From: Mycolicibacterium sp. MU0053
GTDB lineage: Bacteria > Actinomycetota > Actinomycetes > Mycobacteriales > Mycobacteriaceae
Direction of reading: 5' to 3'
Assembly: GCF_963378095.1 (NCBI RefSeq)
Contig: NZ_OY726397.1
Location: 1,302,001 to 1,366,000 of the forward strand
DNA length: 64,000 bases
Part shown: positions 12,108 through 27,501 of the stretch, one piece after another
How positions within the stretch are numbered: position 1 is the first letter of the stretch
How the letters are laid out: each line of letters opens with the position of its first letter
Translations under genes and position numbers: made by a program
Notes under the pieces: generated by a model
The model's database searches: none
What the model saw: the letters and a program-made list of their open reading frames with translations, nothing else
Told to the model about the DNA's origin: nothing

Positions 12108-12130
12108 TGGTGCCCCCGGCAGGATTCGAA
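12108..12130. other. attL of element 1 (copy of the tRNA-Arg 3' end)
   Basis: 23 bp starting TGGTGCCCCCGG and ending GATTCGAA, identical to 42382-42404 inside the tRNA-Arg gene and to 27502-27524. It corresponds to the T-loop, acceptor strand and CCA of the tRNA. Confidence 0.9.
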
Positions 12131-12240
12131 CTAGCCGGATGAGGCTCTAGCCCACCCGCCCTCGCGTGCGCTGATGCCGCTATTATTGCTGGCAGCAGAC
12201 TATTTCACCGATTGCTGGTGTTAGATTCTGTTCGGTTCTG

Positions 12241-12282
12241 TATAGGCCCGTTATAGCCCGCTTATAGCCCGCTTATAGCCCG
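12241..12282 (+). repeat. Four arm-type integrase sites, left end of element 1
   Basis: TATAGCCCG (the first copy is TATAGGCCCG) at 12241, 12252, 12263 and 12274, exactly 11 bp apart, one helical turn, in the same orientation. Two more copies are at the other end (27457 and 27468). Such spaced repeats are what the N-terminal domain of lambda/L5-type integrases binds. Confidence 0.7.
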
Positions 12283-12308
12283 AAACTCGCCCGTGAGGAG
12301 CAGCAGCG

Positions 12309-13487
12309 ATGCCGCAGAAGAAACCCGCCGCCGCCACCCGTAGCCGCCGGGGGTTCGGGCGGCTTCGCCAACGCGGGTCGGGCCGCTGGCAGGCGAGCTA
12401 CCTCCATCACGGCGCGCTGCATTACGCCCCGGCGACGTTTCCGACGAAGGACTCCGGTGCGTCGTGGTTGCAGAACGAGCGTGACCTGATCGACCTCGAC
12501 CGCCGCAAGCCGGGCACCTGGACCCCACCCGCCGAGCGGGTGACCAAGGCTGCGGCGCGCAAACTCACGCTGCGCGACTACGCGAAGCCGTGGCTGCAGC
12601 ACCGCAACCTCTCGCCACGCACCCGCGACAACTACGAGTACCACCTTGAGCGGAACATCTTGCCGACACTGGGGGATTCGGCGCTGGCCGAGATTACGGC
12701 CGAGGACGTGCGCGTGTGGTTCACCGGCCTGGGCACCGAGCACCGCACCCGCAACGCTCAGGCCTATGGCGTGCTGCAGGCGGTGCTGAACACCGCGACC
12801 GATGACGGTCTGATCGACCGCAGCCCGGCCCGCATCAAGGGCGCGGCGGCGGTGAAGCACACCAAGCGGTCGGTGGTGTTGTTGGAGCCCGACGAGTTGG
12901 CGGCGCTGGCCGACAAGATGCCCGAGACGCTGCGGCTGACAGTGCTGCTGGCCGGGTGGTGCGGGCTGCGGCGAGGGGAGTTGTTCGCGCTGACGCGGGC
13001 CGACGTCGCCGACGATGCGGCCACGGTGCGCGTCAGCAAGGCGGTGACGTTCCGGCACGGCAAGTTCGAGGCCGGGCCGACCAAGACCAAGGAGTCCAAC
13101 CGCACCGTCACCGTGCCGCCGCACCTGCGCCCGATCATCGCGGCGCACCTGCGCGCCTATGTCGGGGAGGCCAAGACGGCGCTGCTGTTCGCCGACCCGG
13201 CGACGGGTGGCTACTACGCCGAGGGCCGGTATCGCGCGCCGTTCTTCAACGCCCGGCAGGCCATCGGCAAGGACGAACTGCATTTCCACGATCTGCGGCA
13301 CTTCGGCGGCGTGATGGCGGCGGTGGCCGGAGGCACCACGAAGGAGGTCATGGCCCGGTTGGGTCACGTCACCAGCGGCACCGCCATGCGCTATCAGCAC
13401 GTCGCCGCCGGGCGGGCCGACATGCTCGCCGATCGCCTGTCGGAGCTGGCCGCTCCGGTGTCGGGCGACGCGCCAGCGGCGGGCTGA
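12309..13487 (+). CDS. int: Tyrosine site-specific integrase of element 1
   Basis: 392 residues with a GAGGAG ribosome site. The N-terminal part GFGRLRQRGSGRWQASYLHHG is the arm-binding domain, the SAM-like core-binding domain spans about 85-165, and the catalytic domain about 190-385. Catalytic residues seen: Arg in GLRRGE (~220), His-x-x-Arg in HDLRHF (~328), a second His region GHVTSG and the Tyr in MRYQH (~361). It should recombine attP with the tRNA-Arg 3' end. It lies 180 bp from attL. Confidence 0.93.
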   Translation: MPQKKPAAATRSRRGFGRLRQRGSGRWQASYLHHGALHYAPATFPTKDSGASWLQNERDLIDLDRRKPGTWTPPAERVTKAAARKLTLRDYAKPWLQHRNLSPRTRDNYEYHLERNILPTLGDSALAEITAEDVRVWFTGLGTEHRTRNAQAYGVLQAVLNTATDDGLIDRSPARIKGAAAVKHTKRSVVLLEPDELAALADKMPETLRLTVLLAGWCGLRRGELFALTRADVADDAATVRVSKAVTFRHGKFEAGPTKTKESNRTVTVPPHLRPIIAAHLRAYVGEAKTALLFADPATGGYYAEGRYRAPFFNARQAIGKDELHFHDLRHFGGVMAAVAGGTTKEVMARLGHVTSGTAMRYQHVAAGRADMLADRLSELAAPVSGDAPAAG

Positions 13488-13692
13488 ATCCCGCACTCAG
13501 GCAACGATTCTGAGATAGCAGTCGATAATATAACGGAACCACTCGCGCCCTAGGCTATTGTTAGCGAGCCGGTCACGTAGCCCCAGACCCGCACTCTCAG
13601 CCTCACTCTCCGTCTCAGGCACCACCCCTCCCGTCTCCGTCTCCCTCTCCCTTCTCAGCTGGGGATGATCACCAGACGACGGAGCAAATCCA

Positions 13693-13926
13693 GTGAGTGC
13701 CAAGACCACCACTCCGCATTTCATCTCCCTGCAGGACGCCGCGACCCGTACTGGGTTCTCGGTGTTCACCTTCCGCGAGAAGATCGCCAGCGGCGAGCTA
13801 CCCGCCTACCGGCTCTCGGACAAGCCCGGCAGCGCCATCCGCGTGAAGGTCGTCGACGTCGACGCGCTGATGAAGCCGTTCATCCCGGCGGAGATATACG
13901 CCGATCGCTCGGCGGTCGCTCCATGA
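13693..13926 (+). CDS. Small HTH protein, excisionase-like
   Basis: 77 residues from GTG at 13693. ISLQDAATRTGFSVFTFREKIASGELPAYRLSDKPGSAIRVKVVDVDALM is a winged helix-turn-helix of the MerR/Xis (excisionase, DNA-binding domain) type. Position directly after the integrase suggests the recombination directionality factor or a control protein. The 205 bp upstream hold a CT-rich tract and no gene. Confidence 0.7.
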   Translation: MSAKTTTPHFISLQDAATRTGFSVFTFREKIASGELPAYRLSDKPGSAIRVKVVDVDALMKPFIPAEIYADRSAVAP

Positions 13927-14067: not shown

Positions 14068-14289
14068 ATGACCGTCACCCTCGACAACCCCGACGCGCTG
14101 CTGCTGCCGCGTGACGTCGCCGCGCTGCGGTGCACCACCGAGAACGCCCTGGCGCAGGAGAGGTGGCGCGGTCGCGGCCCGCGCTATGTGCGCGACGGGC
14201 GGCGCGTGCTGTACCGGGCCGGTGACCTCACCGACTACATCGCCGCACACACGATTGAGCCGGGAGCGCCAGTGCCGCAACAGGAGTGA
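14068..14289 (+). CDS. Small HTH protein, AlpA/excisionase-like
   Basis: 73 residues: LLLPRDVAALRCTTENALAQERWRGRGPRYVRDGRRVLYRAGDLTDYI is the AlpA/Xis-type HTH with the typical RYVRxGRRVLY wing. Its stop overlaps the GTG at 14286 of the Rep gene, so it may be co-translated with it. Either this gene or the one at 13693 is the excisionase, and the other could activate element genes. Confidence 0.7.
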   Translation: MTVTLDNPDALLLPRDVAALRCTTENALAQERWRGRGPRYVRDGRRVLYRAGDLTDYIAAHTIEPGAPVPQQE

Positions 14290-16244
14290 GAAACAGCGAT
14301 GCCGCCCAGCGCGTCCGTTTGGCCTCGACGCATGTGCCGGGCGGCATCACCACCAACGACGACTCTACCGCAGAGTCACCCCGCACGATGTCCAACGAGA
14401 GGTACGGCCCGATGTCCAACGAGAGGGACAACATGGAGTTTAGCAACGATCCGCGCAGCGGTGCCGGATCACCAGAGGCCAACGGTCACAACGGCAACGG
14501 GCACGTCGTTCCGGCTGACCTCCCCGCCGACTTCGGTAAGCGCCCACGCAGGGTCAACGAGCGTCCGCCCGGCGACCACAGCCCGTACCCCGATCGGCCC
14601 GCCAACTTCGTGCCCGGTTCACCCGAGGCCGCGACGACCGTGGGCGGTCTCTATGCCGCTGAGCATGGTGTGGCGAGGGGCAAGCTGGCCAGGGGCACAC
14701 GGGGTTACGAGACGGTCGCGCAGCTGGGCAGCGTCACCCTGGCTCACGCCAGGGCGACCGGGCTGATCGACCGTGACCACAAGCCCTCGGTGGCCGAGGT
14801 GTCGCAGTGGTACGCCGGACTGGACGCGGCGCTGGGGTGGGAGTGGGAGCCGGAGACGCCCGCCACAGTCGCCACCGCCGCCGGGCTCAAGGCCGCGATC
14901 AAGGGGCTGGACCCCGACCGCAAGATCGCGCTGACGACGATCGACGCGCTCGCGGCCGAGGGTGTGCAGTGGGCGGCGGCGGTGGTTGAGGCGGCGCGTG
15001 CGGAGAACACCTACGCCGCGCTCATCGGCGACCGTAAGCAGCGCCCGCTGTCGCTCACCACGGCGCAGCTGTACGACCGGGGAGCACCGCCCGAGGACAT
15101 CGTCACGCTGCCCGCCGCGACAACCACGTCGCTCGGTGAGTCGGCTCGCGTCGTGCGCGCCTGGGACGCGGAAGATCGACTACGCGCCACTGAGCAGGCC
15201 CGCGCCACCGAGGCCGCGAAGCTGGTTGCCGCCGTGGAGATTCCCGGTCGGATCAACCTCGCGACATACACCCCTCCCGACACGGCCTGGCTGATCGACG
15301 GGCTGATACCGATGGACGGGAGCCTGGGCCTGTTCGCCGAGCGGAAGGCCGGCAAGACCACCACCGTGGTCGAGATGGTGCGCTCGATGCTAAGCGGCGA
15401 CGAGTTCCTGGGTCGGTTCGCCACCCACCTGCCCGCCGGGGCGCGAGTGGCGTTGCTGGACACCGAGATGACCCCGGCGATGCTGCACCATGAGTACACG
15501 AAAGTCGGGGTGCCCGTCGATGACCTCGACCGCATCGACCTGCACCCGCTGCGGGGTCGCAGCCGCCTGCTGGACTTGCGCGACGACGCCACTCGGGCGC
15601 GCTGGCAGAACTTGATCGCGCCGGGCGCGTTGATCGTCGTGGACTGCCTCTACACCGTGCTCGCGGCGGCTCAGGTGGACGAGAGTTCGGCGCAGGTGTC
15701 CGACATCATCGACGGCATCAAGGCGCTCGCGGTCCAGTGCGGTGCCGCCGGGCTGGTCATCGTGCACCACCTCGGCAAGGACCCCACCAAAGGCGCTCGC
15801 GGCCATAGCTCGATCGAGGGTGGCGTCGACACCCTGGCGACCATCTGGCTCGACGGCCCGCCCGCCGCCGACACGCCCCGGCTGTTCTCGGCGACCGGGC
15901 GCCTTGATGTCGACGTGCCTCCGGCGCTGCTAAACCGTGGTGACGACAACCGGCTGACACTCAGCGCCAGCACTCCGAAGGCCGACCGCGCCAGGGCGGC
16001 GGATCGCAGCGACGACGACACCGCCTGGAAGCTCATCAGCGACCACCCCGGCAAGTCGCTGCGGGGTCTCGAAGAACTCCCGACCGAGACCCGCAAGCTG
16101 TCGCGGAGCCGCCTGCGGCGGGCGCTCGATCGGCTCGACGGCCTCGGCTACATCGTCAATCGCGGCAGCGCCGAGCGGCCCGCGTGGCACGCCGCCGACC
16201 GGCCTGGCGACGCCTTCACGATCGCTGCCGAGCGCGCCGATTGA
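14286..16244 (+). CDS. RepA-like AAA/RecA-fold ATPase (replication protein of element 1)
   Basis: Up to 652 residues. A RecA/RepA-type ATPase lies at about 335-545: Walker A AERKAGKTTT (~353), RVALLDTEM, Walker B ALIVVDCLY (~447), VIVHHLGKD and RGHSSIEGGVD (~500-515). A winged helix closes the protein (~580-630). Known relatives are hexameric helicases of RSF1010 RepA type and satellite/prophage replication proteins. The start is ambiguous. GTG at 14286 overlaps the previous gene, but a 15-bp sequence repeated at 14388 and 14412 gives two ATGs, and the ATG at 14433 has the best ribosome site (GAGAGG). Confidence 0.82.
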   Translation: MRNSDAAQRVRLASTHVPGGITTNDDSTAESPRTMSNERYGPMSNERDNMEFSNDPRSGAGSPEANGHNGNGHVVPADLPADFGKRPRRVNERPPGDHSPYPDRPANFVPGSPEAATTVGGLYAAEHGVARGKLARGTRGYETVAQLGSVTLAHARATGLIDRDHKPSVAEVSQWYAGLDAALGWEWEPETPATVATAAGLKAAIKGLDPDRKIALTTIDALAAEGVQWAAAVVEAARAENTYAALIGDRKQRPLSLTTAQLYDRGAPPEDIVTLPAATTTSLGESARVVRAWDAEDRLRATEQARATEAAKLVAAVEIPGRINLATYTPPDTAWLIDGLIPMDGSLGLFAERKAGKTTTVVEMVRSMLSGDEFLGRFATHLPAGARVALLDTEMTPAMLHHEYTKVGVPVDDLDRIDLHPLRGRSRLLDLRDDATRARWQNLIAPGALIVVDCLYTVLAAAQVDESSAQVSDIIDGIKALAVQCGAAGLVIVHHLGKDPTKGARGHSSIEGGVDTLATIWLDGPPAADTPRLFSATGRLDVDVPPALLNRGDDNRLTLSASTPKADRARAADRSDDDTAWKLISDHPGKSLRGLEELPTETRKLSRSRLRRALDRLDGLGYIVNRGSAERPAWHAADRPGDAFTIAAERAD

Positions 16245-16729
16245 TGCGCGGCGCGGTCCGGCGCGGTTCGACTCGGCTCCGCAAAAGCCCAGGTGAACCG
16301 CGCCGATCAACACCCGGCGAGGTCCGTGAAAAGCCCAGGTCGGCGGCGAACCGCGCCGACGCGACCGGCGCGCTCCGAAACGCCCTCTGACCTGCGGGAA
16401 CGACCAGTATCCCGCCCTCGTCGGGGTTAAGCGCGCCGAACCGCCCGGAGCGCGCCAGTCCGGAACCCGCGCACTAATAACCGCAGTTCAGAGCATATTT
16501 TTGGTGAAAAATGCGCCGAAGTGCGCCGGTTCGCCGACTGGAACCGCGCCGAGCGCGCCCGGTCCTTATGGGACCGGCGCGGTTGGCCGGTCCGTGGGCG
16601 CGGTCGGTTCAGAGGGATGGATGGGAGGCGGGTGAGAGGCGGCGGGTGGCGGCGTCACGGACCCACAGCGCACCGCGAGGGAGGCGGCGGCTCCCCGACG
16701 TCTGCACGGTGCGAGAACAGAATGGGAAC
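16245..16729. other. Candidate replication origin of element 1 (iteron-like repeats plus AT-rich hairpin)
   Basis: A 485-bp gene-free stretch. Five copies of AACCGCGCCG lie at 16296, 16349, 16542 (direct) and 16259, 16575 (inverted). AAAAGCCCAGGT is repeated at 16283 and 16329. The only AT-rich patch (16471-16515) contains a hairpin GCAT-TTTTT/AAAAATGC at 16493-16514. Placement right after the Rep gene suits an origin. Placement just before terminase small suits a cos/pac site, so both are possible. Confidence 0.5.
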
Positions 16730-17218
16730 ATGCCTGGACCGACCATGACCCGAGAGGACAGCCGACGCCGCGCCGAGCGCGCCCACCGGCTGCGGGCACT
16801 CGGGCGCACCTGGCAGGAGATCGCCGACGCCGAGGGCTTCCAGTCCCGTGGAGCGGCGCGAACGGCTGTGGCGCGCTACACGTCCACCGAACCCGCCGAG
16901 AGCGCCGAGGAGGTGCGCCGGTCCGCGTCGGAGACGCTGCGCATCACCCGCTCGATCCTGTTGGGCCGCGTCGCCTCGGCCACTCAGCGCGGCGACGATC
17001 AGACGCTGGTGACCCTGACCCGCGAGGTGCACCGCAACATCGACCAATGGGCCAGGCTCGCTGGCGCTTACGCGCCGACCACTCAGCAGGTCGACGTCAC
17101 CGTGTGGACGTCGCCGCAGGAGATCATCGCCGACACCGAGCGCCGGTTGCTTGCGCTCGCCGCCGAACGGCAACAACAGTTGCCCGCCAACATCATCGAG
17201 GGAGAAGTGATCGCATGA
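16730..17218 (+). CDS. Probable terminase small subunit
   Basis: 162 residues from ATG at 16730 (ATG 16745 is an alternative). Residues about 5-45, REDSRRRAERAHRLRALGRTWQEIADAEGF then AARTAVARY, form an HTH for DNA recognition. A helical part ends RNIDQWARLAGAYAPTTQQVDV, the layout of phage small terminases. The large subunit is 6 kb downstream in the same element. A generic HTH regulator is the alternative. Its last codon overlaps the next ATG. Confidence 0.6.
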   Translation: MPGPTMTREDSRRRAERAHRLRALGRTWQEIADAEGFQSRGAARTAVARYTSTEPAESAEEVRRSASETLRITRSILLGRVASATQRGDDQTLVTLTREVHRNIDQWARLAGAYAPTTQQVDVTVWTSPQEIIADTERRLLALAAERQQQLPANIIEGEVIA

Positions 17219-17739
17219 CCACCGCCACGACGTCCGACGTCATCACCGCCGCGATGTCGATCGCCAGCGACGCCGCCGACGGCAAGCTGTCGCCGACCGA
17301 TCTGCAGACCACCGCCGTCGCCGAGTGCCGGGAGTTGTTCGGCACCGTCGTCGGTGAAGGCGATGCCCTGTGGACCCTGCACGCCGACGTCGCCCGGCAG
17401 GCGATCGCGCTCGGGGCGCTGAGCGCCGACGAACTCAGCGAGTGGACAGCGGTGATGCGCCGCCGCACCGGAGAAGCGTCGGAGGCACCCGCCCCACCCC
17501 TCGACCTGTTGCCGGCGAAATCGGCTGCGAGCGTTGACGAGAGCCAGCCGGAATCGACCGACGAACCTGAAGCCACTCCGGCGGGCGGCGTGGCCGGGGC
17601 GCTCGCCGTCCTCGCGGCGCTCGCGACTGCAGCCCGCTCCGCCGAGACCGAGGCTGCGCCGACTCCTGCACCGAAGCGCCCCACCGACGGGTACGACCCG
17701 CTGGCGGGGTGGGACGCCGGAAGTAGTCGCCGACCGTGA
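17215..17739 (+). CDS. Hypothetical element protein
   Basis: 174 residues, overlapping neighbours at both ends (ATGA at 17215, GTGA at 17736). The N-terminal 90 residues are helical and the C-terminal half is Ala/Pro-rich, with an Ala-rich stretch (about 120-145) too weak to call a membrane segment. No family recognised. The coupled layout suggests a role with the terminase small subunit or replication. Confidence 0.6.
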   Translation: MTTATTSDVITAAMSIASDAADGKLSPTDLQTTAVAECRELFGTVVGEGDALWTLHADVARQAIALGALSADELSEWTAVMRRRTGEASEAPAPPLDLLPAKSAASVDESQPESTDEPEATPAGGVAGALAVLAALATAARSAETEAAPTPAPKRPTDGYDPLAGWDAGSSRRP

Positions 17740-17927: not shown

Positions 17928-18617
17928 ATGACTGCGCCTCGCACCCGCCGCCGCCGCACTCAGTCTGCGCCCGCTGGCACCGTCGCCGCCTACATTCGCG
18001 TGTCCACCGAGGAGCAAGCCGCCAGTGGTGCGGGCCTCGACGCACAGCGCGCCGCCATCGCCGCCGAGTGCGAGCGCCGGGGCTGGACGGTGGTGGCCTG
18101 GCACGCCGATGAGGGCATCAGCGGCGGCAAGGCGCTCGACGCCCGGCCCGGCCTGACCGCCGCGCTGGGCGAGGTGCAGTCGGCCACGGCGGCGGTGCTG
18201 ATGGTCGCCAAGTCCGATCGGCTCGCACGGAGTCTGCCGACCCTGCTCGACGTCCTCGACCGGACTGAGCGTGCGGGCGGTGTAGTCGTCGCAGTCGATG
18301 GCACGGTCGACACGAGCACGGCGGCGGGCCGGTTCACGACCCAGATCATGGGCAGCGTCGCGGAGTTGGAACGCGGTCTGATCAGCGACCGGACTAAGGC
18401 CGCGTTGGCGGTCCGCAAGGCGCAGGGCGTTCGCCTCGGTCGCCCGACGACCGTGCCGCCCTCGGTGGTGGCCCGTATCGCCTCCGAGCGTGCTGCAGGC
18501 GCAACGTGGGCCGCTATCGCTGACGGGCTCAACACCGACGGCACACCGACCGGCCAGGGCGGCTCGAAGTGGTTCCCGAACACTGTTGCCCGCATCCATA
18601 AGCGAGCGGCGGTGTAA
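17928..18617 (+). CDS. Serine recombinase (resolvase/invertase family)
   Basis: 229 residues. The catalytic domain begins AAYIRVSTEEQAASGAGLDAQ with the nucleophile Ser near residue 27, then VAKSDRLARS and the long E-helix region SVAELERGLISDRTKAAL. A resolvase-type HTH follows (RLGRPTTVPPSVVARI...ATWAAIADGLN). The size fits a small resolvase/invertase and not a large serine integrase. In an element that already has a tyrosine integrase it may resolve dimers, invert DNA or have brought in the adjacent cargo. Confidence 0.88.
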   Translation: MTAPRTRRRRTQSAPAGTVAAYIRVSTEEQAASGAGLDAQRAAIAAECERRGWTVVAWHADEGISGGKALDARPGLTAALGEVQSATAAVLMVAKSDRLARSLPTLLDVLDRTERAGGVVVAVDGTVDTSTAAGRFTTQIMGSVAELERGLISDRTKAALAVRKAQGVRLGRPTTVPPSVVARIASERAAGATWAAIADGLNTDGTPTGQGGSKWFPNTVARIHKRAAV

Positions 18618-18626: not shown

Positions 18627-19205
18627 CTATGAGGGTGGCTGAGCTACCGAGTTCCCGTCGGCTGCGTAAGGCGGTCCGAGGAATCGACGCACCATCTCAT
18701 GCTCGGCATCGGCGTCTTGGAGGGGCCAGTACCACAGGGCTAGGAATGCTCGGATCAACCATTGTGCGGCAAGGGGATCGGGCGTGCTTAGCCCGACCAT
18801 TTCGTTGGCGAAGCGGGTGACCATGGGTGAGTCGCTGAGCCATTCGTCGGCGGGGACTGTGGCCATCGAGCGCATGATCTGTGCGAGCGGATCGGCTCGC
18901 AGGCGTCGCAACGCGACTGTGGTGGCGGTGACGATGCGCTCTGATCCGGTCAGCCCAGCGATGGCTTCGCGAACCGAGTCGAGGATGCGTTCGGCTTGCC
19001 GGCCTAGAACGGCGTCGCGGATTGCTGCCTTACCTCCGGTGTGGCGGTAGATGGTCGCTGGTGAACAGTGAACTGTGGCGGCCAAGGTGTCGATGCTGAA
19101 TGCGTCGTAGCCCTGACGCGACATCAGGTCGGCGGCGGCCGCGTAAATCCGTTCGGCAGCCTCGCTGTGGCGGTCGCGCCCAACCAGCCAGTCGTCAGTC
19201 GCCAT
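18627..19205 (-). CDS. TetR family regulator of the P450 cassette
   Basis: 192 residues. The HTH is RIYAAAADLMSRQGYDAFSIDTLAATVHCSPATIYRHTGGKAAIRDAVL (about 18-66), followed by a helical ligand domain. It diverges from the P450 gene. A perfect palindrome at 19245-19259 in the shared upstream region is the likely operator, so it probably senses the P450 substrate. Confidence 0.88.
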   Translation of the reverse strand: MATDDWLVGRDRHSEAAERIYAAAADLMSRQGYDAFSIDTLAATVHCSPATIYRHTGGKAAIRDAVLGRQAERILDSVREAIAGLTGSERIVTATTVALRRLRADPLAQIMRSMATVPADEWLSDSPMVTRFANEMVGLSTPDPLAAQWLIRAFLALWYWPLQDADAEHEMVRRFLGPPYAADGNSVAQPPS

Positions 19206-19244
19206 CGGTCAGTTGTCCCCTCGCCGCGAACCCATGAAGTCGTT

Positions 19245-19259
19245 TTATCACTGTGAGAA
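19245..19259. promoter_or_regulatory. Probable TetR operator of the P450 operon
   Basis: TTATCAC-T-GTGAGAA, a 15-bp palindrome (TTnTCAC/GTGAnAA), 40 bp upstream of the TetR start and about 77 bp before the preferred P450 ATG. Its presence argues against a P450 start at 19213. Confidence 0.55.
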
Positions 19260-19335
19260 GAATGGTGGCCGATTTCTCAGCGAAGGCGCTGGTCGGCTCA
19301 CCGGACTGAGAAAGCGCCTCGCAACACTTACTGAG

Positions 19336-20613
19336 ATGGGTTTTCACGTTCGCCGTGCACCGTTGACGCAGGTGTACACCGCGTTCAACCCTGAGCGCAT
19401 GACCCTCTTGGCGGACGCGAAAGACTTCTTCGGAACCGACGCCCTACAGGACCCCTACCCGCTCTATGACCGGATGCGCCACCAAGCACCGGTGCACCGC
19501 ATCGGTGACTCCGTCTTCTACGCCGTGTGCGGCTGGGACGCCGTGATGGAGGTCGTCAACCGCGTCGAGGACTTCTCGTCGAACCTGACCGCGACGATGG
19601 TGTATCACGACGATGGGACCGTTACCCCGTTCGACATGGGGCCTCTTGGTGGGCCTCAGAACGCGCTGGCCACAGCGGACGACCCGGTGCACGACGCGCA
19701 TCGCAAGCTGCTGTTGCCCCACCTGTCCGCCAGGCGAGTAAATGTCATCGAAGAGTTTGCTCAAGACACTGCTCGGCGGCTTTGGTCGGAGGGGTTGGCC
19801 GACGGGCAGATCGAATGGATGAGCGCCATGGCCAATCGGCTCCCGATGATGGTGGTCGCCCGCTTGCTGGGGTTACCAGACGAAGATGTCGACAAGCTGA
19901 TCCGACTGGGCTACGCCACCACCACCCTGCTCGACGGCGTCGTGAACCCGGCCCAACTCGAAGCCGCAGGCATGGCTGCAATGGAGCTGTCCGGGTACGT
20001 GATGGAGCACTTCGCGAAGGCCAGTGAAAGTCCTGGCCCGGGACTCATTGGCGACCTTGCTGCCCGCTACGCATCCGGTGAGTTGGAGCAACTCCCAGCG
20101 ATGGCGATCATGCTCACATTGTTCAGCGCAGCAGGCGAATCCACTGCCTCCTTGCTGGGTAGTGCCGCGTGGATTCTGGTGAGCCATAGCGACATTCAAG
20201 AACAGGTCCGTGCCCATCCCGAACTGCTGGGTGCGTTCATCGAGGAGACGTTGCGCTATGAGTCGCCGTTTCGCGGTCACTACCGCCACGTAGTCAGAGA
20301 CACCACGCTGGCCGGGGTCGATGTGCCCGCCGATTCCCGCCTGCTGTTGATGTGGGGAGCCGCAAACCGCGACCCCCAGCAGTTCGACAGACCCAACGAG
20401 TTTCGGCTCGACCGCAGCGGCGCAAAAGGGCACATCACCTTCGGCAAGGGTGCACACTTCTGCGTCGGGGCCGCACTGGCACGCCTGGAGGCTCAGATCG
20501 TATTGCGGATGCTGCTTGAGCAGACCGAGTGGATTCGCGCCGCCGACGTAGGGCAATGGCTGCCTAGCATCCTGGTCCGCCGACTCGAACGCCTGGAATT
20601 GGTGGTCTCATGA
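19336..20613 (+). CDS. Cytochrome P450 monooxygenase
   Basis: 425 residues from ATG at 19336. An open frame runs from 19213, but those extra 41 codons cover the operator and have no family similarity. Landmarks: DPYPLYDRMRHQAPVH near the N-terminus, I-helix LFSAAGESTASL, EETLRYESPFRGHYR (ExxR), and heme loop FGKGAHFCVGAALARLE with the Cys ligand. The I-helix has Glu-Ser where Asp/Glu-Thr is usual. It is a soluble bacterial class I P450 needing a separate ferredoxin and reductase, neither of which is encoded in the element. Co-transcribed with a SnoaL-like gene. Confidence 0.9.
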   Translation: MGFHVRRAPLTQVYTAFNPERMTLLADAKDFFGTDALQDPYPLYDRMRHQAPVHRIGDSVFYAVCGWDAVMEVVNRVEDFSSNLTATMVYHDDGTVTPFDMGPLGGPQNALATADDPVHDAHRKLLLPHLSARRVNVIEEFAQDTARRLWSEGLADGQIEWMSAMANRLPMMVVARLLGLPDEDVDKLIRLGYATTTLLDGVVNPAQLEAAGMAAMELSGYVMEHFAKASESPGPGLIGDLAARYASGELEQLPAMAIMLTLFSAAGESTASLLGSAAWILVSHSDIQEQVRAHPELLGAFIEETLRYESPFRGHYRHVVRDTTLAGVDVPADSRLLLMWGAANRDPQQFDRPNEFRLDRSGAKGHITFGKGAHFCVGAALARLEAQIVLRMLLEQTEWIRAADVGQWLPSILVRRLERLELVVS

Positions 20614-21041
20614 CCGATCAGGCAGAGATCATCGCGTATTGCGAACTGTCCCAAGCGAAGGCCAAGTACTGCCGCGCTCTCGACACCCTGGATTGGGCCG
20701 CGTTAGCCGCGCTGATGACCGAAGGCATCGAATTTGGCATGAGTGACAGTGAATCCGAGCCTCACATGACCCTCGGACGCGACGAAACGCTGACGATGCT
20801 GCGATCCCTGGTCGCGGGCGCAAGGACCGCTCACCAAGTCCACACACCCGAGATCGACCTCAACGGAGAAGAGGCGCGGGTGATTTGGGCAGTGCAAGAC
20901 CGGGCCGTGTTCGACAACGGCACGTCGGTCACCGGCTACGGGCACTACTACGAACGCTGGGTGCGCCAAGCGGGTGCATGGAGGATTGCGTCACTGACGC
21001 TGGTTCACCTCATCACCGACGTTCAGCACGCCAACACGTGA
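20610..21041 (+). CDS. SnoaL-like (NTF2 superfamily) protein
   Basis: 143 residues. The ATG overlaps the P450 stop (ATGA). The pattern AKYCRALDTLDWAALAALMTEGIEFGM ... GRDETLTMLRSLV ... AHQVHTPEIDLNGEEARVIWAVQDRAVF ... GYGHYYERWVRQAGAWRIASLTLVH is the SnoaL_4 cone-shaped fold used by hydratases, isomerases and cyclases. It likely processes the P450 product. Confidence 0.85.
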   Translation: MTDQAEIIAYCELSQAKAKYCRALDTLDWAALAALMTEGIEFGMSDSESEPHMTLGRDETLTMLRSLVAGARTAHQVHTPEIDLNGEEARVIWAVQDRAVFDNGTSVTGYGHYYERWVRQAGAWRIASLTLVHLITDVQHANT

Positions 21042-21183: not shown

Positions 21184-21420
21184 ATGCAGAGCACGATCGT
21201 TCTCGCCGATCCGACCGCGCTGACCCCGGCGCAGTGGTCGGGGCGGCTGGCCGCGTACCTCGCTCGCGGTCGCGGCAACGATGACCCCGCCGTGACCGCT
21301 TGCCGTGCGGCGCTGAGCTATTGGCGGTGCCGCCGGGTGATCGACGCCGAGGTCGACGCGCTCAACCCTGCGCACGCCGACGCGCTCGCTGCCCGACTCC
21401 GCACGGCGGTGCCCGCATGA
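21184..21420 (+). CDS. Small hypothetical element protein
   Basis: 78 residues from ATG at 21184. Helical and Ala/Arg-rich with one motif, PAVTACRAALSYWRCRRVID. No family recognised. Its stop overlaps the next ATG (ATGA at 21417). It restarts the element's gene run after the P450 cassette, behind about 140 bp of intergenic sequence. Confidence 0.6.
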   Translation: MQSTIVLADPTALTPAQWSGRLAAYLARGRGNDDPAVTACRAALSYWRCRRVIDAEVDALNPAHADALAARLRTAVPA

Positions 21421-22154
21421 TCGCGATGCGCGGCAAGCCCTTGTCGACCCCCAAGACACCGACGCCGATCCGGCCCAGTCGGATGACGCCGCCCACTACT
21501 CCCAAGCCGCATCGCCCGTCGAGAGGACGACTCGCCATGAAGCAGGCCGATATTCGCCGCCGTCGCCGTGCCCACATGCCGACCGTGAACGATGGCGACT
21601 GGTCGCTACGCCGCGAGATCGCCGAGGTCGCCGCGCCTTTCGCCGCCCGCGCCGCCGCCCAGTCCATGCCGCTGCAGCTGCGGCGGCAGGTGCTGGCCTA
21701 CGCCGACGCGGCGCATGAGGCGGCGGGCACGGCGACCGGCTGGGTGGCGGAGCGCGATGCTCGCCGCCGCACCGCGCATCTTGCCCATGACGAGGGCAAG
21801 CGTCGGTACGCGATGACGACGTTGATCGACCTCGCCCCGCGCCCGGCCCTGCCGGAGATCACTGACGAGATGATCGCCGATGGCAGCTGGGCGGCGGCGC
21901 TCATCGAGATGGTCGAGCCGGTCGACGCGGCGCTGAGCGACCTGCTGGCCAAGGCCTTTCCACCCGGCGCTCCTCCGCTGGGCGGTCAGCCGTCGCGCTC
22001 CGACCGGCTGGACCGGCTGCTGCGCGAGACCGTCGACCGGGCCGCGCTGTCGCTGGAGCGTGCGCTCAATGCTGCCGCCGAGAAGCAGACGGCCGCACCA
22101 AGCGCCAAGTCCGATCCTCGCGACGAACTCGCCGCGCTAGGTGTCGAGGTTTGA
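21417..22154 (+). CDS. Hypothetical element protein
   Basis: 245 residues from the overlapping ATG at 21417. The first 40 residues are Pro/Arg-rich and probably disordered (MKQADIRRRRRAHMPTV at 21537 is an alternative start). The rest is helical with two Ala-rich coiled segments. Not recognised. It may be a DNA-binding or packaging-associated protein by context, but the sequence does not show this. Confidence 0.6.
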   Translation: MIAMRGKPLSTPKTPTPIRPSRMTPPTTPKPHRPSRGRLAMKQADIRRRRRAHMPTVNDGDWSLRREIAEVAAPFAARAAAQSMPLQLRRQVLAYADAAHEAAGTATGWVAERDARRRTAHLAHDEGKRRYAMTTLIDLAPRPALPEITDEMIADGSWAAALIEMVEPVDAALSDLLAKAFPPGAPPLGGQPSRSDRLDRLLRETVDRAALSLERALNAAAEKQTAAPSAKSDPRDELAALGVEV

Positions 22155-22186
22155 GACACCAATCCGTCAGAGAGACAGGACTTCTG

Positions 22187-22417
22187 ATGACCGACTATTA
22201 CAGCCCGCGTTGCCGGTCCTGCAACGGGCCGTGCTGGCTGTACAAGGGTGACGTCTGGGGTTACACCTGCTCGGCGTGCATCGACCGCCACCTGGAAGCG
22301 GCTGCAGCGCGTGCCGACGCCCGCGACCGCAAAGCCCGCGAACGACTGCTCTCGAAGCGGTTAAACCACAACGACTCTCCTCGCGTCTCGAAGGTGGGCG
22401 TCGGGGCGGTGATCTGA
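22187..22417 (+). CDS. Small zinc-ribbon protein
   Basis: 76 residues. CRSCNGPCWLYKGDVWGYTCSAC contains two CxxC knuckles about 17 residues apart, a probable zinc ribbon, followed by an Arg/Ala-rich helix. Comparable small ribbons occur in phage and satellite genomes without a known function. Confidence 0.6.
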   Translation: MTDYYSPRCRSCNGPCWLYKGDVWGYTCSACIDRHLEAAAARADARDRKARERLLSKRLNHNDSPRVSKVGVGAVI

Positions 22418-22463: not shown

Positions 22464-23072
22464 ATGGGAAGCAATGTGAAGGAAGGCCATCAGATGACTA
22501 AGTCCCGCCGCCCGCTGAGATGGGCGGACCTCACCGCACGCGAACAGATGGGCCTGCGCATCGCCGTGCACGAGAGTTCTCACGCCGTCGCCGGGGCTCT
22601 GCTCGGTGGCCGTATCCGGTCGGCGGTGCTAACCAACAGCCGGGTGTGGGGCGTCGATGGGTTGACGACGTTCGAGGAGGTACCGGCCAGCAGTTCGCCT
22701 GCGATCGCCTATGCGGGACCGTTTGGCGAGGCGCGGTGGCTCGACGGTCGTCATCCCACCCAGCGCACGCTGTTCGCCCTGATACGGGGCAGCGGCCATG
22801 GCGACCACCGGGCGATCTGTGCGGCTGCCGCGTCGGCGGACGTGTACAGCTACGGCAACACCTCGGCGGAGGCGCGGCGGACGGTGCCGCCCCTGCTGGA
22901 ACGCGCCTGGCCCGCCGTGATCAACCTCGCCAAGAAGATCCATGTCGACGGCGAGGCGACCCACGACGACGTGTGCAAGGCGTTGGGCATCACCGACAGC
23001 GGTGGACCCGGCAGCAGTCAACTCGCCAGCCTGCGTGCCGGATTGCGACGCGTGCCGCCGATCGCCGCCTGA
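22464..23072 (+). CDS. M41-like zinc metalloprotease domain protein
   Basis: 202 residues (ATG 22464; MTKSRRP at 22494 is an alternative). AVHESSHAVAGALLGG near residue 35 is the HExxH zinc motif in the exact context of FtsH/M41 peptidases, and IAYAGPFGEARWLDG ... SGHGDHRAI provides the AGxxAE-like turn and third-ligand Asp. There is no AAA domain or membrane segment. It may mature proteins of the element or of a helper phage, or cleave host regulators. The role is inferred only from the motif. Confidence 0.65.
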   Translation: MGSNVKEGHQMTKSRRPLRWADLTAREQMGLRIAVHESSHAVAGALLGGRIRSAVLTNSRVWGVDGLTTFEEVPASSSPAIAYAGPFGEARWLDGRHPTQRTLFALIRGSGHGDHRAICAAAASADVYSYGNTSAEARRTVPPLLERAWPAVINLAKKIHVDGEATHDDVCKALGITDSGGPGSSQLASLRAGLRRVPPIAA

Positions 23073-23159
23073 CTCCAACCGATCACCGCGCCGAGCCTCG
23101 GCGGCGTGGTGACCTGGCCACTCGATCGACCGACCAATGACACCACCGAGGAGACGACC

Positions 23160-23426
23160 GTGACCACCATCGAACGCCAGCCGGGCAGCCGCTGCATTGA
23201 CTTCCTGCCCGACTACTGCCCGCACTGCAACCCGCTCGGCGACCAGGCCAACAGCCGGGTTCGGCTGGCCGCGCTCACGGAGCCGACGTCGGTGACGTGG
23301 CATGGCGGTCGGCGGCTGATCTGTGAGTACCGCTGCGACCGCTGCGGGCACCCGTGGGTGCGCGCCGATCTCTGGACCGCCGAGCACGCCGGTCTCGACC
23401 CCAAGCAACGGAGGACCGCCGCATGA
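23160..23426 (+). CDS. Zinc-ribbon protein upstream of terminase large
   Basis: 88 residues from GTG at 23160 behind GAGGAG. Two knuckles are seen, CPHC near residue 20 and CDRCGHPW near residue 62. The stop overlaps the terminase ATG (23423). A DNA-binding accessory to packaging is possible but is context-based inference. Confidence 0.6.
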   Translation: MTTIERQPGSRCIDFLPDYCPHCNPLGDQANSRVRLAALTEPTSVTWHGGRRLICEYRCDRCGHPWVRADLWTAEHAGLDPKQRRTAA

Positions 23427-24937
23427 CCGCCGCGACCGCTGACCAGACCCGGCTCGCCGCCGTCCGCGTTCAGAGGGCCAGTCGAGGCCGGCAAAAGCCC
23501 AGCAGCCCTGCTGAACTGGCACGGCGCATCGTGCGCAACTACCGCATCACCCCCGCCATCGAGTTGATCTCCGACGTCATCAGCGACGCGATCGGCCAGC
23601 CGGGGCGGCGCTATGTAATCACCACCCCGCCGCGCACCGGCAAGAGCGTGCTGGTGTCGAGGGTGGGCGTGGTCGACGCGCTGCGGCACAACCCGAATGC
23701 TCAGATCATCCTCGCGTCCTACAGCGACGAACTGGCCCAGGATCACAGCCGCGAAGCGCGGGCGATGATCGCCGAGCACGCCGACCTGCTCGGTTACCGG
23801 CTGTCGGCGGACAAGACGGCGGTCGGTCGCTGGCGTGTCGACGGGCACGCCGGAGGCTTGCTGGCAGGCGGCATCAACTCCGGTGCAACAGGGTTCGGTG
23901 CAGACCTCCTGCTGGTGGATGACCCGGTGAAGGACGCCTCCGAGGCCGACTCCGCCGCCCACCGTCGCCGGGTGATCAACGAATTCCGGTCTACCTTGAT
24001 GTCTCGCGTGCATCCCGGTGGCTCCGTGGTGCTTGTGATGACCCGGTGGCATCCCGATGATCTCGCGGGCACTCTGCTGCGCGACGAACCCGACGTCTGG
24101 ACGCATGTGAACATTCCCGCCGTCGCGGAGGCGGGTATTCCCGACGCACTGGGCCGCGCTCCCGGCGTGGTGATGACCTCGGCGCTCGGGTACACCGCTG
24201 CAGAGTTCGCGGCGATTCGGCGCAGCGTCGGCGAGCGGGCGTGGTACTCCCTGTATCAGGGGGTGCCCGCCGCGCCCGAGGGCGGATTGATCAAGCGCGA
24301 CTGGCTCGATCAGTGGCGGCTGCCCGCAGCGCCGACCGCCCCGACCAAGACCGTCGTCGGCGTCGACCCGGCTGACTCCGGCTCCGGTGACGCCTGTGGC
24401 ATCGTAGCGGCGTCGCTGACCCGCGAGGGCGTGGTGGCGGTGATCGCCGACGTCTCCGCGCCGATGACGAGTGATCAATGGGCCAGGGCCGCTGTCGATT
24501 TGGCGGTCGACGTCGGGGCGTCGGAGATCGCCGTTGAAGGCTTTGCCGCCCGCGAGACCTACCAGCGCGTGGTGAAGGACGCCATTCGCCGGACCGCGAC
24601 GCCGCACCCGATCAGGGTCACCACCTGGCCTCCCAAGGGCAGCGGGCGCGGCGGCGGCGATGCACTGGCACGGTCGGCGGCGCTGCTGCAGGGCTTGGAG
24701 ACCGGCACCACCCGCATCGCGGGACACCTGCCCGACCTCGAACAGTCGGCGGTCACATGGCAGGCCGGACAGCACCAGCCCGACAGCCTCGCCGCACTCG
24801 TCGTGGCCCACGACGTGTTGGTCCACTCGATCGGTCAGCAGTGGGGCTTCTCGTCACCGCTCGACACCGAGCGGCGGATGCGCAACCAGTCGATCACGTC
24901 GATTCCCGAGTACCTGCGCCGCCGCGTCGGCGGGTAG
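23423..24937 (+). CDS. Terminase large subunit (packaging ATPase-nuclease)
   Basis: 504 residues. N-terminal ATPase: Walker A PPRTGKS (~70), ILASYSDELAQDHSREAR, Walker B LLLVDDPVKD (~163) and the coupling motif VVLVMTRWHPDDLAG. C-terminal RNase H-like nuclease: VGVDPADSGSGDACGI (~314), VEGFAARETY (~370) and the late Asp in PDSLAALVVAHD (~455). These are the Terminase_6/phage-type features. In phages this motor cuts and pumps DNA into proheads. Here it is carried without any capsid or portal gene. Confidence 0.88.
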   Translation: MTAATADQTRLAAVRVQRASRGRQKPSSPAELARRIVRNYRITPAIELISDVISDAIGQPGRRYVITTPPRTGKSVLVSRVGVVDALRHNPNAQIILASYSDELAQDHSREARAMIAEHADLLGYRLSADKTAVGRWRVDGHAGGLLAGGINSGATGFGADLLLVDDPVKDASEADSAAHRRRVINEFRSTLMSRVHPGGSVVLVMTRWHPDDLAGTLLRDEPDVWTHVNIPAVAEAGIPDALGRAPGVVMTSALGYTAAEFAAIRRSVGERAWYSLYQGVPAAPEGGLIKRDWLDQWRLPAAPTAPTKTVVGVDPADSGSGDACGIVAASLTREGVVAVIADVSAPMTSDQWARAAVDLAVDVGASEIAVEGFAARETYQRVVKDAIRRTATPHPIRVTTWPPKGSGRGGGDALARSAALLQGLETGTTRIAGHLPDLEQSAVTWQAGQHQPDSLAALVVAHDVLVHSIGQQWGFSSPLDTERRMRNQSITSIPEYLRRRVGG

Positions 24938-24982
24938 CTGACTCGCCCGTCGTTGTCGGGGGTCTCGGACATACTCGCGCTC

Positions 24983-25417
24983 ATGGCAGAAACCTGGGAG
25001 TCGCGAGACCTTCCCGTCCTTAAGGCAGCGGTCGAATTGTACGAGGAGAGTGGTCGACGCCTGCGCGCAAGCGCGATCGAGAAAGCCACCGGGTTCGATA
25101 AGGAGACCGTGCAGCGCGCCCTACGGGCGCTCTACCGCGAGCCGTACTTCGAGGAGGCGACCGGCAGCTTCGGGGGTGAGATCGTCTTCGTTGGCGAGCC
25201 GACCGGCGAGGCGTTGCGGGTCGCGGGGCAATGGCCGTCACCTGAGATGCAGTTACAGAGGTTGATCGAGGCGTTCGAGGCCGTTGCCGCCGACGAGTCG
25301 CGCCCCGAGGAGGAACGCAGCCGCGCCAAGAAGATCGGGCTGTGGCTCACCGGCGCACTCCAACAGGTGGCCATCGGCGCGCTCAGCGGCGCGGGCGGCA
25401 ACCTAATGACGGGATAG
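24983..25417 (+). CDS. Winged-helix-type hypothetical protein
   Basis: 144 residues from ATG at 24983. LPVLKAAVELYEESGRRLRASAIEKATGFDKETVQRALRALYREPYFEE looks like a winged helix, followed by a long helix pair and a C-terminal Gly/Ala-rich segment. Not assigned to a family. It opens the right-end cargo block of element 1, 12 bp before the DUF4238 gene. Confidence 0.6.
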   Translation: MAETWESRDLPVLKAAVELYEESGRRLRASAIEKATGFDKETVQRALRALYREPYFEEATGSFGGEIVFVGEPTGEALRVAGQWPSPEMQLQRLIEAFEAVAADESRPEEERSRAKKIGLWLTGALQQVAIGALSGAGGNLMTG

Positions 25418-25428
25418 ACCATTAGCGA

Positions 25429-26553
25429 ATGACCATCCAGGAAGAGTTGGGCGACATCAGCGGGTGGCGGGTGACGAAGGTCGTCCGAAATCCGTGGGGG
25501 CAGGTTCCGCACACGGGCGGTGGACGCTACCTGACCGATGCCGCCCGCGCCTACATGGACAGACTCTTGGCCCAGCAGCGGGTGCCTGACACGGAGAGCC
25601 GTCGACACCACTACGTCCCTCAGGCGTACCTGCGCAAATGGTCTTTCGACGGTCGGCGGGTGTGGACGCTCGACACGGTGACGGGATTGGTCAAGCCGCT
25701 CGGCACCAGGGATGTCTGCGTGAACGAGAACTTCTACAGGGTGATCGGACCGGATGGCGCGCCGCACAATCGAGTCGAGAAGCTGTTCGGTGTCGTAGAT
25801 GCGGAACTTGGGCGAGTTCAGCGGCTATTTGATGACCTCGAAGACCCGGAAACCCTGAATTTCGATGACCTCTTGGGCCTGGGCATCACAATGGCGGTGC
25901 AGCGGATGCGGACTCTTCAGCAGAGGCGCGTTCAAACCCAGTACAGCGTGTGGATGGCGGCTCAAAGCCCCGAGTTCCGGTCGATCGCCGACGACGATCA
26001 GAACCCGCATCAGGCAGCTGGCATCCATACCGAGATGCTGTTCAGGGCTATGTGGGGTGGCGCCGACGTCCTCATCAAACGGCAGATCGAGGTCTGGGAC
26101 GATCCGAAGGCGCGGTTTATGACGTGCGACGCGCCGGTGCTAATTCCCTTCGTGCGGAATGAGCGACCGGGAATCATGGACGCCGCGTACATCGTTTGGC
26201 CCGTGAGCCCGCGTCGCGTGGTAGCACTGAGCAGAAACGATGTCGGCGAAAAGGCTGTTATCCGCGAGGCCACCGGCGAACTCGTCGGAATCGTGCGAGA
26301 TGCCGTTGAGCAGGGCCGCGAGCGCATGATCTTCGCCAGCGAGGCGCAGCGCGACCGGCTACCGACTGGCAAGCTGTTCCGACGCCGCACCCAGGTCCGC
26401 CTCCGATGCTCTGATCGCAGTCCGCAGGGCGAGTACGTCGCTCCTCCTGGGTGTGTGGTGAAGATGTCGGAGGCCTATGCCGACAAGCCAGATGTCGCGT
26501 TGTGCGCTCAGGGCCTGCACTCTCCTGCTCCCGAGATATTCCCGCTCGCCTAG
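25429..26553 (+). CDS. DUF4238 family protein
   Basis: 374 residues. RRHHYVPQAYLRKWS near residue 60 is the signature opening of DUF4238. RDVCVNENFYRV and a conserved central helix bundle (VQRMRTLQQRR ... EMLFRAMWGGADVLIKRQIEVW) follow, then FMTCDAPVLIP. The family is widespread, scattered and often found in mobile or defence-rich loci, with unknown activity (possibly nuclease-related). It ends 4 bp into the opposing gene. Confidence 0.75.
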   Translation: MTIQEELGDISGWRVTKVVRNPWGQVPHTGGGRYLTDAARAYMDRLLAQQRVPDTESRRHHYVPQAYLRKWSFDGRRVWTLDTVTGLVKPLGTRDVCVNENFYRVIGPDGAPHNRVEKLFGVVDAELGRVQRLFDDLEDPETLNFDDLLGLGITMAVQRMRTLQQRRVQTQYSVWMAAQSPEFRSIADDDQNPHQAAGIHTEMLFRAMWGGADVLIKRQIEVWDDPKARFMTCDAPVLIPFVRNERPGIMDAAYIVWPVSPRRVVALSRNDVGEKAVIREATGELVGIVRDAVEQGRERMIFASEAQRDRLPTGKLFRRRTQVRLRCSDRSPQGEYVAPPGCVVKMSEAYADKPDVALCAQGLHSPAPEIFPLA

Positions 26554-27452
26554 CCGGGCGCAGCTGGCCCCTGCAGGTCGGCGAAGGTCTCAACGATCGC
26601 CGCCACGTGGTCGATCAGATCGCCCACGGCGAACAAGCTGATCTCGGAACCGTTATTGGCTCGGAAGGAGAAGTCCACATTGGGCGGAGCTGGCTGCTCG
26701 AAATTGATACCTGACGACCAGAGCATCACGGCGTCGTCGTGCGGCACTCCGTCGGGGTAGACGGACACTCGCGCCACCTTGACTGATGTACCGGGTTTGA
26801 TCGTGACGACTGGCCCTTTGTCGATGTCGCCAGGTGCTCGATCTAGCCAGATGTCAACGCCGATGCCCGTGCCCGAGGGCCAGACGGCGTTGGCCGAAAA
26901 CGCCGCAGCCGCACACAGGACTAGGTTGCGGTGCTTGTCGGTGCCGCCCAGACCTCGCAATGTCGGGAGAGCGTTGACATTCTCGCCCGTCTGGGAGAAA
27001 GGCTGCGCGGCCTTCATGAGATCGGCGGCCTCCGGCCAGACGCCGGGCACCTTCTTCTCGACCACCGAGTCCCAGGGGTCGGCAGTGTTGACGATGGGGA
27101 ACGCCACCCTCTCTGCCTGCTTGCCGTCAGGGGTGCCCCCTGCAGCCAGATAGCACTGAAAGGCAACGTATTCGAGCGCGGACCGGACGTTGTTGACGAT
27201 CTGCCCGGCCATCAGGGGGAGGTTCCTCGCAGGTTCGGAGGTGACTGCGACTTCCCAGAGGTACATCGCGAACTGCGGGTGGCGAACAGTCCGGACGCCG
27301 ATGCCGCCGTTCTCCATCCAACCCATGAACACGTTCATCAACTCGCCGCACTGGCCCTTGGCCTCAGTGATGCGAGCGCGGGAATCGGATAGGTCTAGGA
27401 CGCCGGTCATCGTAACGACCAGAGTAGGGCGACCGTCCGACGAGAGGACCAC
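26550..27452 (-). CDS. Hypothetical protein at the right end of element 1
   Basis: 300 residues (MTGVLDLSDS at about 27410 is a shorter start). IVNNVRSALEYVAFQCYL ... ERVAFPI ... GLGGTDKHRNLVL is a pattern I have seen in actinobacterial accessory proteins of unknown function, with a KHR motif reminiscent of HEPN-like helices. It is convergent with the DUF4238 gene and faces away from att. Its position suggests exchangeable cargo. Confidence 0.6.
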   Translation of the reverse strand: MVLSSDGRPTLVVTMTGVLDLSDSRARITEAKGQCGELMNVFMGWMENGGIGVRTVRHPQFAMYLWEVAVTSEPARNLPLMAGQIVNNVRSALEYVAFQCYLAAGGTPDGKQAERVAFPIVNTADPWDSVVEKKVPGVWPEAADLMKAAQPFSQTGENVNALPTLRGLGGTDKHRNLVLCAAAAFSANAVWPSGTGIGVDIWLDRAPGDIDKGPVVTIKPGTSVKVARVSVYPDGVPHDDAVMLWSSGINFEQPAPPNVDFSFRANNGSEISLFAVGDLIDHVAAIVETFADLQGPAAPG

Positions 27453-27456
27453 TTGC

Positions 27457-27476
27457 TATAGCCCGGATATAGCCCG
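27457..27476 (+). repeat. Two arm-type integrase sites, right end of element 1
   Basis: TATAGCCCG at 27457 and 27468, again 11 bp apart and in the same orientation as the four copies at 12241-12282, 26 bp from the middle att site. Confidence 0.7.
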
Positions 27477-27501
27477 GCTCACCCGGATACCTGCATCTAC
27501 A

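Follow-up and report, generated by a model that had tools for sequence, protein, structure and literature searches.

The 64,000-nucleotide stretch of Mycolicibacterium sp. MU0053 analysed here (the window; C1:1302001-1366000 of a single-contig 5.45-Mb genome, contig NZ_OY726397.1) contains an integrated element of 15,394 bp, element 1 (12108-27501), which we interpret, with a probability of about three in four, as a penton-less member of a group of terminase-bearing and mostly penton-bearing satellites of Dori-like phages that would reshape the heads of their helpers. Its boundaries follow from three identical copies of the 23-bp sequence TGGTGCCCCCGGCAGGATTCGAA, at 12108, 27502 and 42382, the last of which is the 3' end of a tRNA-Arg(ccg) gene (42382-42457, minus strand). 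Three copies of this attachment (att) core indicate two elements in tandem within one attB, so that element 1 lies between its left core (12108-12130) and a directly repeated core (27502-27524) that is both its own right end and the left end of element 2, while the attB tRNA gene now stands at the distal end of element 2. As expected of a phage satellite, element 1 is integrated, att-bounded and provided with an integrase, which adjoins the left att copy.

The packaging side of the element is represented by a large terminase, TerL (23423-24937, plus strand; phrog_38 7e-87, Terminase_6N), whose gene looks intact and encodes both a Walker A (TTPPRTGKS) and a Walker B (LLLVDD) motif. A helix-turn-helix (HTH) protein (16727-17218, plus strand; phrog_645), with a homologue in the same order in Dori, Sejanus and prophiT49-1, is a candidate small terminase by its position and HTH. 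None of the scanned open reading frames (ORFs) of element 1 gave a Pfam or PHROGs match to a portal, capsid, protease, tail or lysis protein, and no structural gene module or remnant of one, as would mark a prophage, was found in the element. Profile hidden Markov models (HMMs) for hexon, portal and penton had zero matches in the window and, at the thresholds applied, none in the host genome.

Judged from its sequence relatives, element 1 is not a lone scrap of prophage but a recurring unit with satellite-only genes. At E 1e-20 or better, 61 of 297 genomes of the genus contain homologues of its TerL, and the closest named relatives by this protein are mycobacteria, in which relatives of this predicted element are widespread; natural carriers include the saprophytes Mycolicibacterium arenosum, M. 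novocastrense and Mycobacterium lehmannii. Among 52 related loci, comprising 40 regions around the best TerL matches and 12 viral contigs (L033-L044), many show all or much of the order HTH-g6-recombinase-(cargo)-g11-g12-g13-HExxH-Zn-TerL; an alternative order has TerL ahead of g11 (e.g. L128, L131, L135, L142). Nineteen distinct elements, not counting L253, a duplicate of L133, are bounded by flanking repeats. In sixteen, one of the repeat copies falls within a tRNA gene; L123, L127 and element 1 are placed via the element 1 core. The tRNA genes used are those for Arg, Val, Pro, Asn, Ala, Leu and Phe. Fifteen of the 19 span 14,590-16,307 bp and the other four 6.9, 8.3, 8.7 and 13.0 kb, a distribution whose upper bound is partly imposed, since the fetched stretches were ~20 kb at most and spans much above 17 kb would hardly be visible. 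In one satellite, L309 of genome G153, the g11-g12-penton block is present twice (5676-11916), the first g12 being in two pieces, and the same genome contains another satellite, L118. Penton-bearing satellites without a TerL of this family at the locus were also seen (L298-L304, L318-L322); these may have a TerL of another kind or depend on that of the helper.

Most relatives carry a penton gene, and element 1 belongs to a penton-less minority. The penton family emerged from protein clustering of the 52 loci together with elements 1 and 2; its members, mostly 250-285 residues long, are encoded between g12 and g13 in satellites and directly after the hexon gene in phages. Satellite pentons are 40-58% identical to Dori gp11, annotated as 'major capsid pentamer protein', and phrog_779 was assigned alike to the one satellite penton scanned, to Dori gp11 and to the prophiT49-1 homologue. 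A satellite penton query matches 504 phage records, with the pentamer name on 33 of the 40 listed. When its AlphaFold2 model (predicted local distance difference test, pLDDT, 85.7) was compared with known structures, HK97 was the top match (E 7e-7, probability 1.00) and all 50 listed matches were phage heads or encapsulins, at modest template-modelling (TM) scores, mostly 0.33-0.52 when normalised to the query.

The distribution of this gene separates satellites from phages. Among the 297 same-genus genomes, the penton was found in 41 and the portal and hexon in an identical set of 9. By profile HMMs, the 41 penton genomes fall into 9 that encode hexon and portal but neither satellite gene and 32 that encode g12 and/or the HExxH gene but no portal or whole hexon; none combines the two sets. 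Of the 32, 30 encode both satellite genes, G134 is without g12, and in G158, whose contigs are short, the HExxH gene was not seen at the locus. A family-level draw of 201 genomes yielded a penton match in 19, and the 18 annotated (the short match in G406 was left out) comprise eight of satellite type, eight with hexon or portal (one with a partial penton) and two that are ambiguous (G312, G327). Of the 42 penton loci of satellite type, 37 have g12 immediately before the penton in the same orientation, and 37 have the HExxH gene after it; at the 20 loci where g12 and penton were both called, the two genes share a four-base overlap in 12. Hexon or portal accompanies the penton in 69 of 78 penton-bearing viral loci and neither does in nine, three of which show the penton alone. 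A further 15 loci or genomes, element 1 among them, have no penton there; nine of these encode both g12 and the HExxH protein, one encodes only the HExxH protein, and five lack both. In L305 (G002), an inversion (9262-12749) appears to split the penton gene, leaving its N-terminal end on the other strand beside g12.

Both genes that flank the satellite penton are present in element 1. The first, g12, encodes a satellite-specific, all-helical protein (21537-22154, plus strand; a longer start at 21417 is possible); the second encodes the satellite-specific HExxH protein, a putative metallopeptidase (22464-23072, plus strand, alternative start 22494) with an HESSH motif and a Peptidase_M50B match below cut-off. 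Neither g12 (two queries) nor the HExxH protein (one query) has a match in 50,697 phage records, and g12 has none in 72,556 plasmids. That g12 might be a hidden capsid or portal protein was rejected, as its AlphaFold2 model (pLDDT 92.8) is all-helical and without a match in PDB or BFVD at E 0.001. The g12 of element 1 is 68-79% identical to that of penton-less G004, G091, G057, G021 and L033 and 78% identical to that of penton-bearing L034; the remaining alignment rows are 26-56% identical, penton-less G210 and G213 (51 and 56%) among them. Of 76 HExxH-protein rows, 73 contain the motif itself; it is missing from L133, its duplicate L253 and the mis-framed L144. In L299 and L301, from two related genomes, the HExxH protein begins with the N-terminal ~66 residues of the phage hexon (E 8e-13 and 4e-8 with a hexon-only HMM; phrog_777 major head protein, 2.5e-8 for L299); a second hexon-domain HMM included the rows of these two loci, so that the independent support is that of the hexon-only HMM and phrog_777. 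For this one lineage, the fusion links the HExxH protein with the assembly of heads; no hexon-like N-terminal domain was found in the other HExxH proteins, that of element 1 included. In HK97-type phages the N-terminal region of the hexon is a scaffold-like delta domain. For phi12, the delta domain is discussed in PMC8569155.

The histories of TerL and penton differ. In a TerL tree of 57 satellite and 43 phage rows, the satellite/phage label changes 3 times against 32.7 times when shuffled, or 2 against 32.3 without mislabelled and stop-bearing rows (55 and 43 rows). The 19 closest phage TerLs form one clade (SH-like approximate likelihood ratio support, SH-aLRT, 99) within the satellite lineages, although the direction of TerL exchange is not fixed by this tree, which was built by a quick method and rooted at the midpoint. 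The penton tree (45 satellite and 42 phage rows) has 16 label changes against 29.4 shuffled, at least six of them forced by well-supported branches, and 13 against 28, again with at least six forced, without mislabelled and stop-bearing rows (44 and 40); satellite L138 pairs with phages L186 and L188, and L034 and L118 pair with L179, L185, L194 and L197. The labels were taken from stretches of limited length, in which a distant portal may be hidden, and L047 (4.3 kb) and L227 (4.4 kb) are called 'satellite' only from being too short for a portal. The contrast between the trees suggests that TerL is inherited within satellites, whereas pentons appear to move between satellites and phages, the satellite penton apparently having been exchanged with the phages to be exploited.

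These trees bear on the alternative that element 1 is a decayed Dori-type prophage stripped of its structural genes. Its TerL is indeed 61-65% identical to those of four M. abscessus prophages, and the HTH-g6-recombinase-TerL order is found also in prophiT49-1, and in Dori and Sejanus if their linear ends are joined. Repeated decay, however, predicts satellite TerLs scattered over the tree, in place of two or three label changes against about 32 shuffled. In addition, g12 and the HExxH protein were found in no phage record, the genes are open and under selection, and elements at several tRNA sites have similar lengths, close to 15 kb. We consider such decay very unlikely.

TerL, g12 and the HExxH gene of element 1 are under purifying selection. 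The ratio of nonsynonymous to synonymous substitution rates (dN/dS) is 0.28-0.32 for TerL against five penton-less relatives, 0.24-0.39 for g12 and 0.16-0.28 for the HExxH gene in the three closest pairs, rising to 0.46 and 0.34 against L115 and L116, which are further removed; comparisons of the HExxH and HTH genes with distant relatives give values of 0.33-0.78. Selection on these genes, and a g12 shared among penton-less elements, make the lack of a penton in this predicted element look like a lasting state rather than fresh damage. It might instead be argued that the satellite family is real but element 1 has been disabled by loss of the penton and gain of a cytochrome P450 gene, and at most excises. 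The penton is absent from element and genome alike, a metabolic cargo block lies inside the element, and decay does occur in this genome, which contains a second TerL remnant (G000:C1:3134755-3135147 and L314:8756-9294; 124 and 55 amino acids, 91 and 84% identical); in addition, the other g12 types of penton-less G210 and G213 qualify the argument from shared g12. Against disablement stand the recurrence of penton-less elements with element-1-type g12 (G004, G091, G057, G021, L033), the low dN/dS of the three genes and a length, 15.4 kb, typical of the family, and we hold it to be unlikely. The satellite interpretation was already offered in a preliminary description of this DNA, which allowed that it would be undermined if the element were not found as a unit in other genomes; the gene set does recur as a unit, and the att boundaries, the lack of any recognised head, tail or lysis gene, near-constant size, purifying selection and separate TerL lineages all speak for a satellite. 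Its picture of packaging genes without a capsid fits element 1 but is not typical of the family, since most relatives carry a penton homologue.

We therefore return to a satellite of Dori-like phages and propose the following course of events. The integrase, with an excisionase-like partner, would move element 1 into and out of tRNA-Arg, and Rep would amplify it. The helper would be an infecting Dori-like phage of about 60-72 kb with hexon and penton as separate genes. Satellite DNA would be packaged by the TerL of the element itself, whose recognition subunit would probably be the HTH protein, and steered into helper proheads, so that the DNA would enter heads made of helper hexon and portal, with a helper tail. 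The g12 and HExxH proteins and, in most relatives, the satellite penton would act on head assembly to give a small head of ~15 kb, and element 1, being penton-less, would take the pentons of its helper. Rosebush presumably belongs to the same penton-bearing phage group. Its head has triangulation number T=9 (PMC7150772). If volume scales as T^1.5 from ~65 kb at T=9, a calculation by hand rather than a result, a T=3 head would take ~12.5 kb and a T=4 head ~19 kb, and an element of 15 kb would have room in a head of T=3-4.

A more specific proposal, to which we give somewhat less than an even chance, is that a widespread family of satellites hijacks helper heads with the penton as the sole capsomer it supplies, swappable and suited to the hexon of the helper, along with g12 and the HExxH protein, and packages its DNA with a long-inherited terminase of its own. 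On this view pentons would be exchanged with phages and TerL would not, so that the penton would act as a helper-recognition cassette; the HExxH protein would reach the inside of the prohead, in one lineage by way of an N-terminal domain borrowed from the hexon, and on the branch of element 1 a diverged g12 would do without a penton.

Several observations weigh against the satellite interpretation as a whole. Element 1 lacks the penton typical of its relatives, none having been found in its genome, and no Dori-like helper prophage was found there either. Eight of the 32 satellite-type genomes have no TerL at the locus (one of these, G158, has TerL on other contigs), nor do five of the eight satellite-type family-level genomes. 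The pentamer identity derives from GenBank annotation and a predicted fold with modest TM scores, and a sequence search of solved structures with the penton gave zero matches. The hexon fusion is confined to one related pair, the parts of g12 and the HExxH protein in head assembly are putative, and for the HTH gene dN/dS ranges from 0.35 to 0.78 in comparisons with six relatives, some of them penton-bearing. The analysis itself shows the anatomy of element 1, its family and its lack of recognised head genes, together with the homology and predicted fold of the penton, the gene distribution, the selection and the contrast of the trees; that the element excises, replicates and is packaged, that small heads form, and what the HTH, g12 and HExxH proteins do, we infer. 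Finally, no cos or pac site was identified when the linear ends of Dori, Sejanus and Megabear were compared with the sequence upstream of terL. Ten-mers common to the sequence upstream of terL were present. The three phage records each start at an ATG, in Sejanus inside an apparently longer reading frame, which suggests that base 1 was set by convention and hints at permuted (headful) genomes.

The remaining genes of element 1 are all on the plus strand unless stated. The integrase and Rep ATPase named in the preliminary description were recovered as a tyrosine integrase (12309-13487; phrog_1 3e-54, PF00589; 92% identical in L118 of G153) and a Rep-like AAA_25 ATPase (14286-16244; PF13481 1e-22) with dN/dS of 0.15, over part of the gene, and 0.29 against two relatives. 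Of its Xis-like proteins, xis1 (13693-13926; phrog_66 3e-6, phrog_575; HTH_17 slightly below cut-off; 91% identical in L118) is excisionase-like, whereas xis2 (14068-14289) has no family match and can be called only a small putative DNA-binding protein, similar proteins being present in several relatives. The complete large terminase and the want of any recognisable capsid, portal, tail or lysis gene were correctly recognised; for the probable small terminase, an HTH protein is in place, its identity as such being a matter of position and HTH.

Downstream of the HTH gene follow g6 (17215-17739; phrog_27872), conserved in this place in satellites and phages, and a serine recombinase of the resolvase/invertase type (17928-18617; PF00239), a recombinase after g6 being found in many relatives and three phages. 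A cargo block (18627-21041), occupying a slot that varies among relatives, encodes TetR (minus strand), the cytochrome P450 and a SnoaL-like protein (both plus strand). Such metabolic cargo inside a phage satellite had been absent from the earlier gene list; in a search of 98 genomes, the P450 reached 87% identity with genes from the genus and had a 74% identical paralogue in its own genome. Further small genes are g11 (21184-21420; conserved, found with g12 in many relatives, no family match), g13 (22187-22417; Cys-rich, weak phrog_26056 match, directly preceded by the penton gene in many relatives) and the conserved zinc-ribbon-like gene (23106-23426; weak matches), which overlaps terL. The variable right-hand region encodes a protein with weak winged-helix-type matches (24953-25417; 94% identical in L116), a DUF4238 accessory protein (25429-26553; PF14022 4e-27; 90% identical in L116), likewise new to the gene list, and, on the minus strand, an accessory protein without a family match (26550-27452), a singleton cluster among the 52 related loci. 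A defence role for accessory genes was not borne out, as PADLOC matched none of the three right-end proteins or the P450. As to a circular form, no exact terminal repeat was present in ten whole viral contigs and one partial (L190), four of the eleven being of satellite type (L035, L037, L162, L167).

Element 2 (27502-42404), in the same tRNA-Arg site, encodes an integrase, a Prim-Pol/AAA_25 Rep and an IS3-like transposase. It was rejected as a helper, none of the 10 ORFs scanned being a terminase or head gene. Its right end has genes with weak LeoBC, LmuB and HEPN_Swt1 matches, and two identical 300-bp direct repeats, 489 bp apart, lie at 30228-31016 within a 430-residue minus-strand ORF. The Rep of element 2, together with an int-xis-Rep order at a tRNA gene that resembles that of actinobacterial integrative conjugative elements (AICEs), could suggest that element 1 is an AICE-like conjugative or mobilisable element with a borrowed terminase. 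No FtsK/TraB-like translocase or relaxase match was obtained among the scanned element 1 proteins, however, and relatives with a penton or a hexon N-terminus suggest a connection with phage heads, which makes this origin extremely unlikely.

If the satellite interpretation is correct, mycobacteria commonly harbour satellites that searches for major capsid genes could miss, and a penton without a hexon, beside g12 and the HExxH gene, would be a simple marker for them. TerL kept within satellites against interleaved pentons would make helpers guessable from sequence and satellite-helper coevolution in mycobacteriophages testable, and separate hexon and penton genes would offer a clean system for how pentons set capsid size.

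Our literature search on penton-bearing or mycobacterial satellites, made by title and start of abstract and with most subscription journals and preprints outside its coverage, returned no description of this family. Reprogramming of helper heads, as proposed here for the family of element 1, is known from P4, SaPI1 and the PLE elements, which use other size-determining proteins and the helper's TerL. Compared with Staphylococcus aureus pathogenicity islands (SaPIs) and classical phage-inducible chromosomal islands (PICIs), which are marked by an Stl/AlpA-type switch, a Pri-Rep, redirection through TerS or cos and use of the helper's TerL, element 1 has an HTH_17 excisionase-like protein and an AAA_25 Rep, but its own TerL. 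Most relatives of element 1 resemble the cos-type SaPIs, such as SaPIbov5, as predicted satellites with one capsid-protein homologue. In SaPIbov5, according to PMC8569155, Ccm forms pentamers and the helper capsid protein hexamers, giving small T=4 procapsids. Here, in contrast, the helpers already encode a separate penton, of which the satellite penton is a homologue, the satellite usually has its own TerL, no counterpart was found for g12 or the HExxH gene, and element 1 is penton-less. Capsid-forming PICIs (cf-PICIs), which rely on the helper for tails (PMC10690885), and MulchRoom/MiniFlayer have their own packaging genes, as element 1 does. All of them, however, have genes for a major capsid protein and a portal, to which cf-PICIs add a protease and connectors; no such gene was found in element 1.

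The candidate mycobacterial PICIs of Abad et al. 2023 (PMC10654092), with which phiRv1 and phiRv2 are classed, are likewise integrated satellite-like elements, several of them in mycobacterial tRNA genes. As far as the main text of that article goes, they are defined by integration machinery plus a major capsid gene, phiRv-related capsid genes are mentioned and the word 'pentamer' does not occur. Element 1, with neither hexon nor penton, falls outside this capsid-based definition, and phiRv1/phiRv2, proposed in the preliminary description as parallels for a capsid-less element, are poor ones, being classed there with capsid-bearing candidates. The nearest counterparts are Dori/Sejanus, prophiT49-1 and related penton-bearing phages. 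These are complete phages, about 60-72 kb long, which encode portal, hexon and tail and in which we could find no g12 or HExxH homologue; this group nevertheless has the TerL closest to that of element 1, the same HTH-g6-recombinase-TerL order and a penton homologous to that of its relatives.

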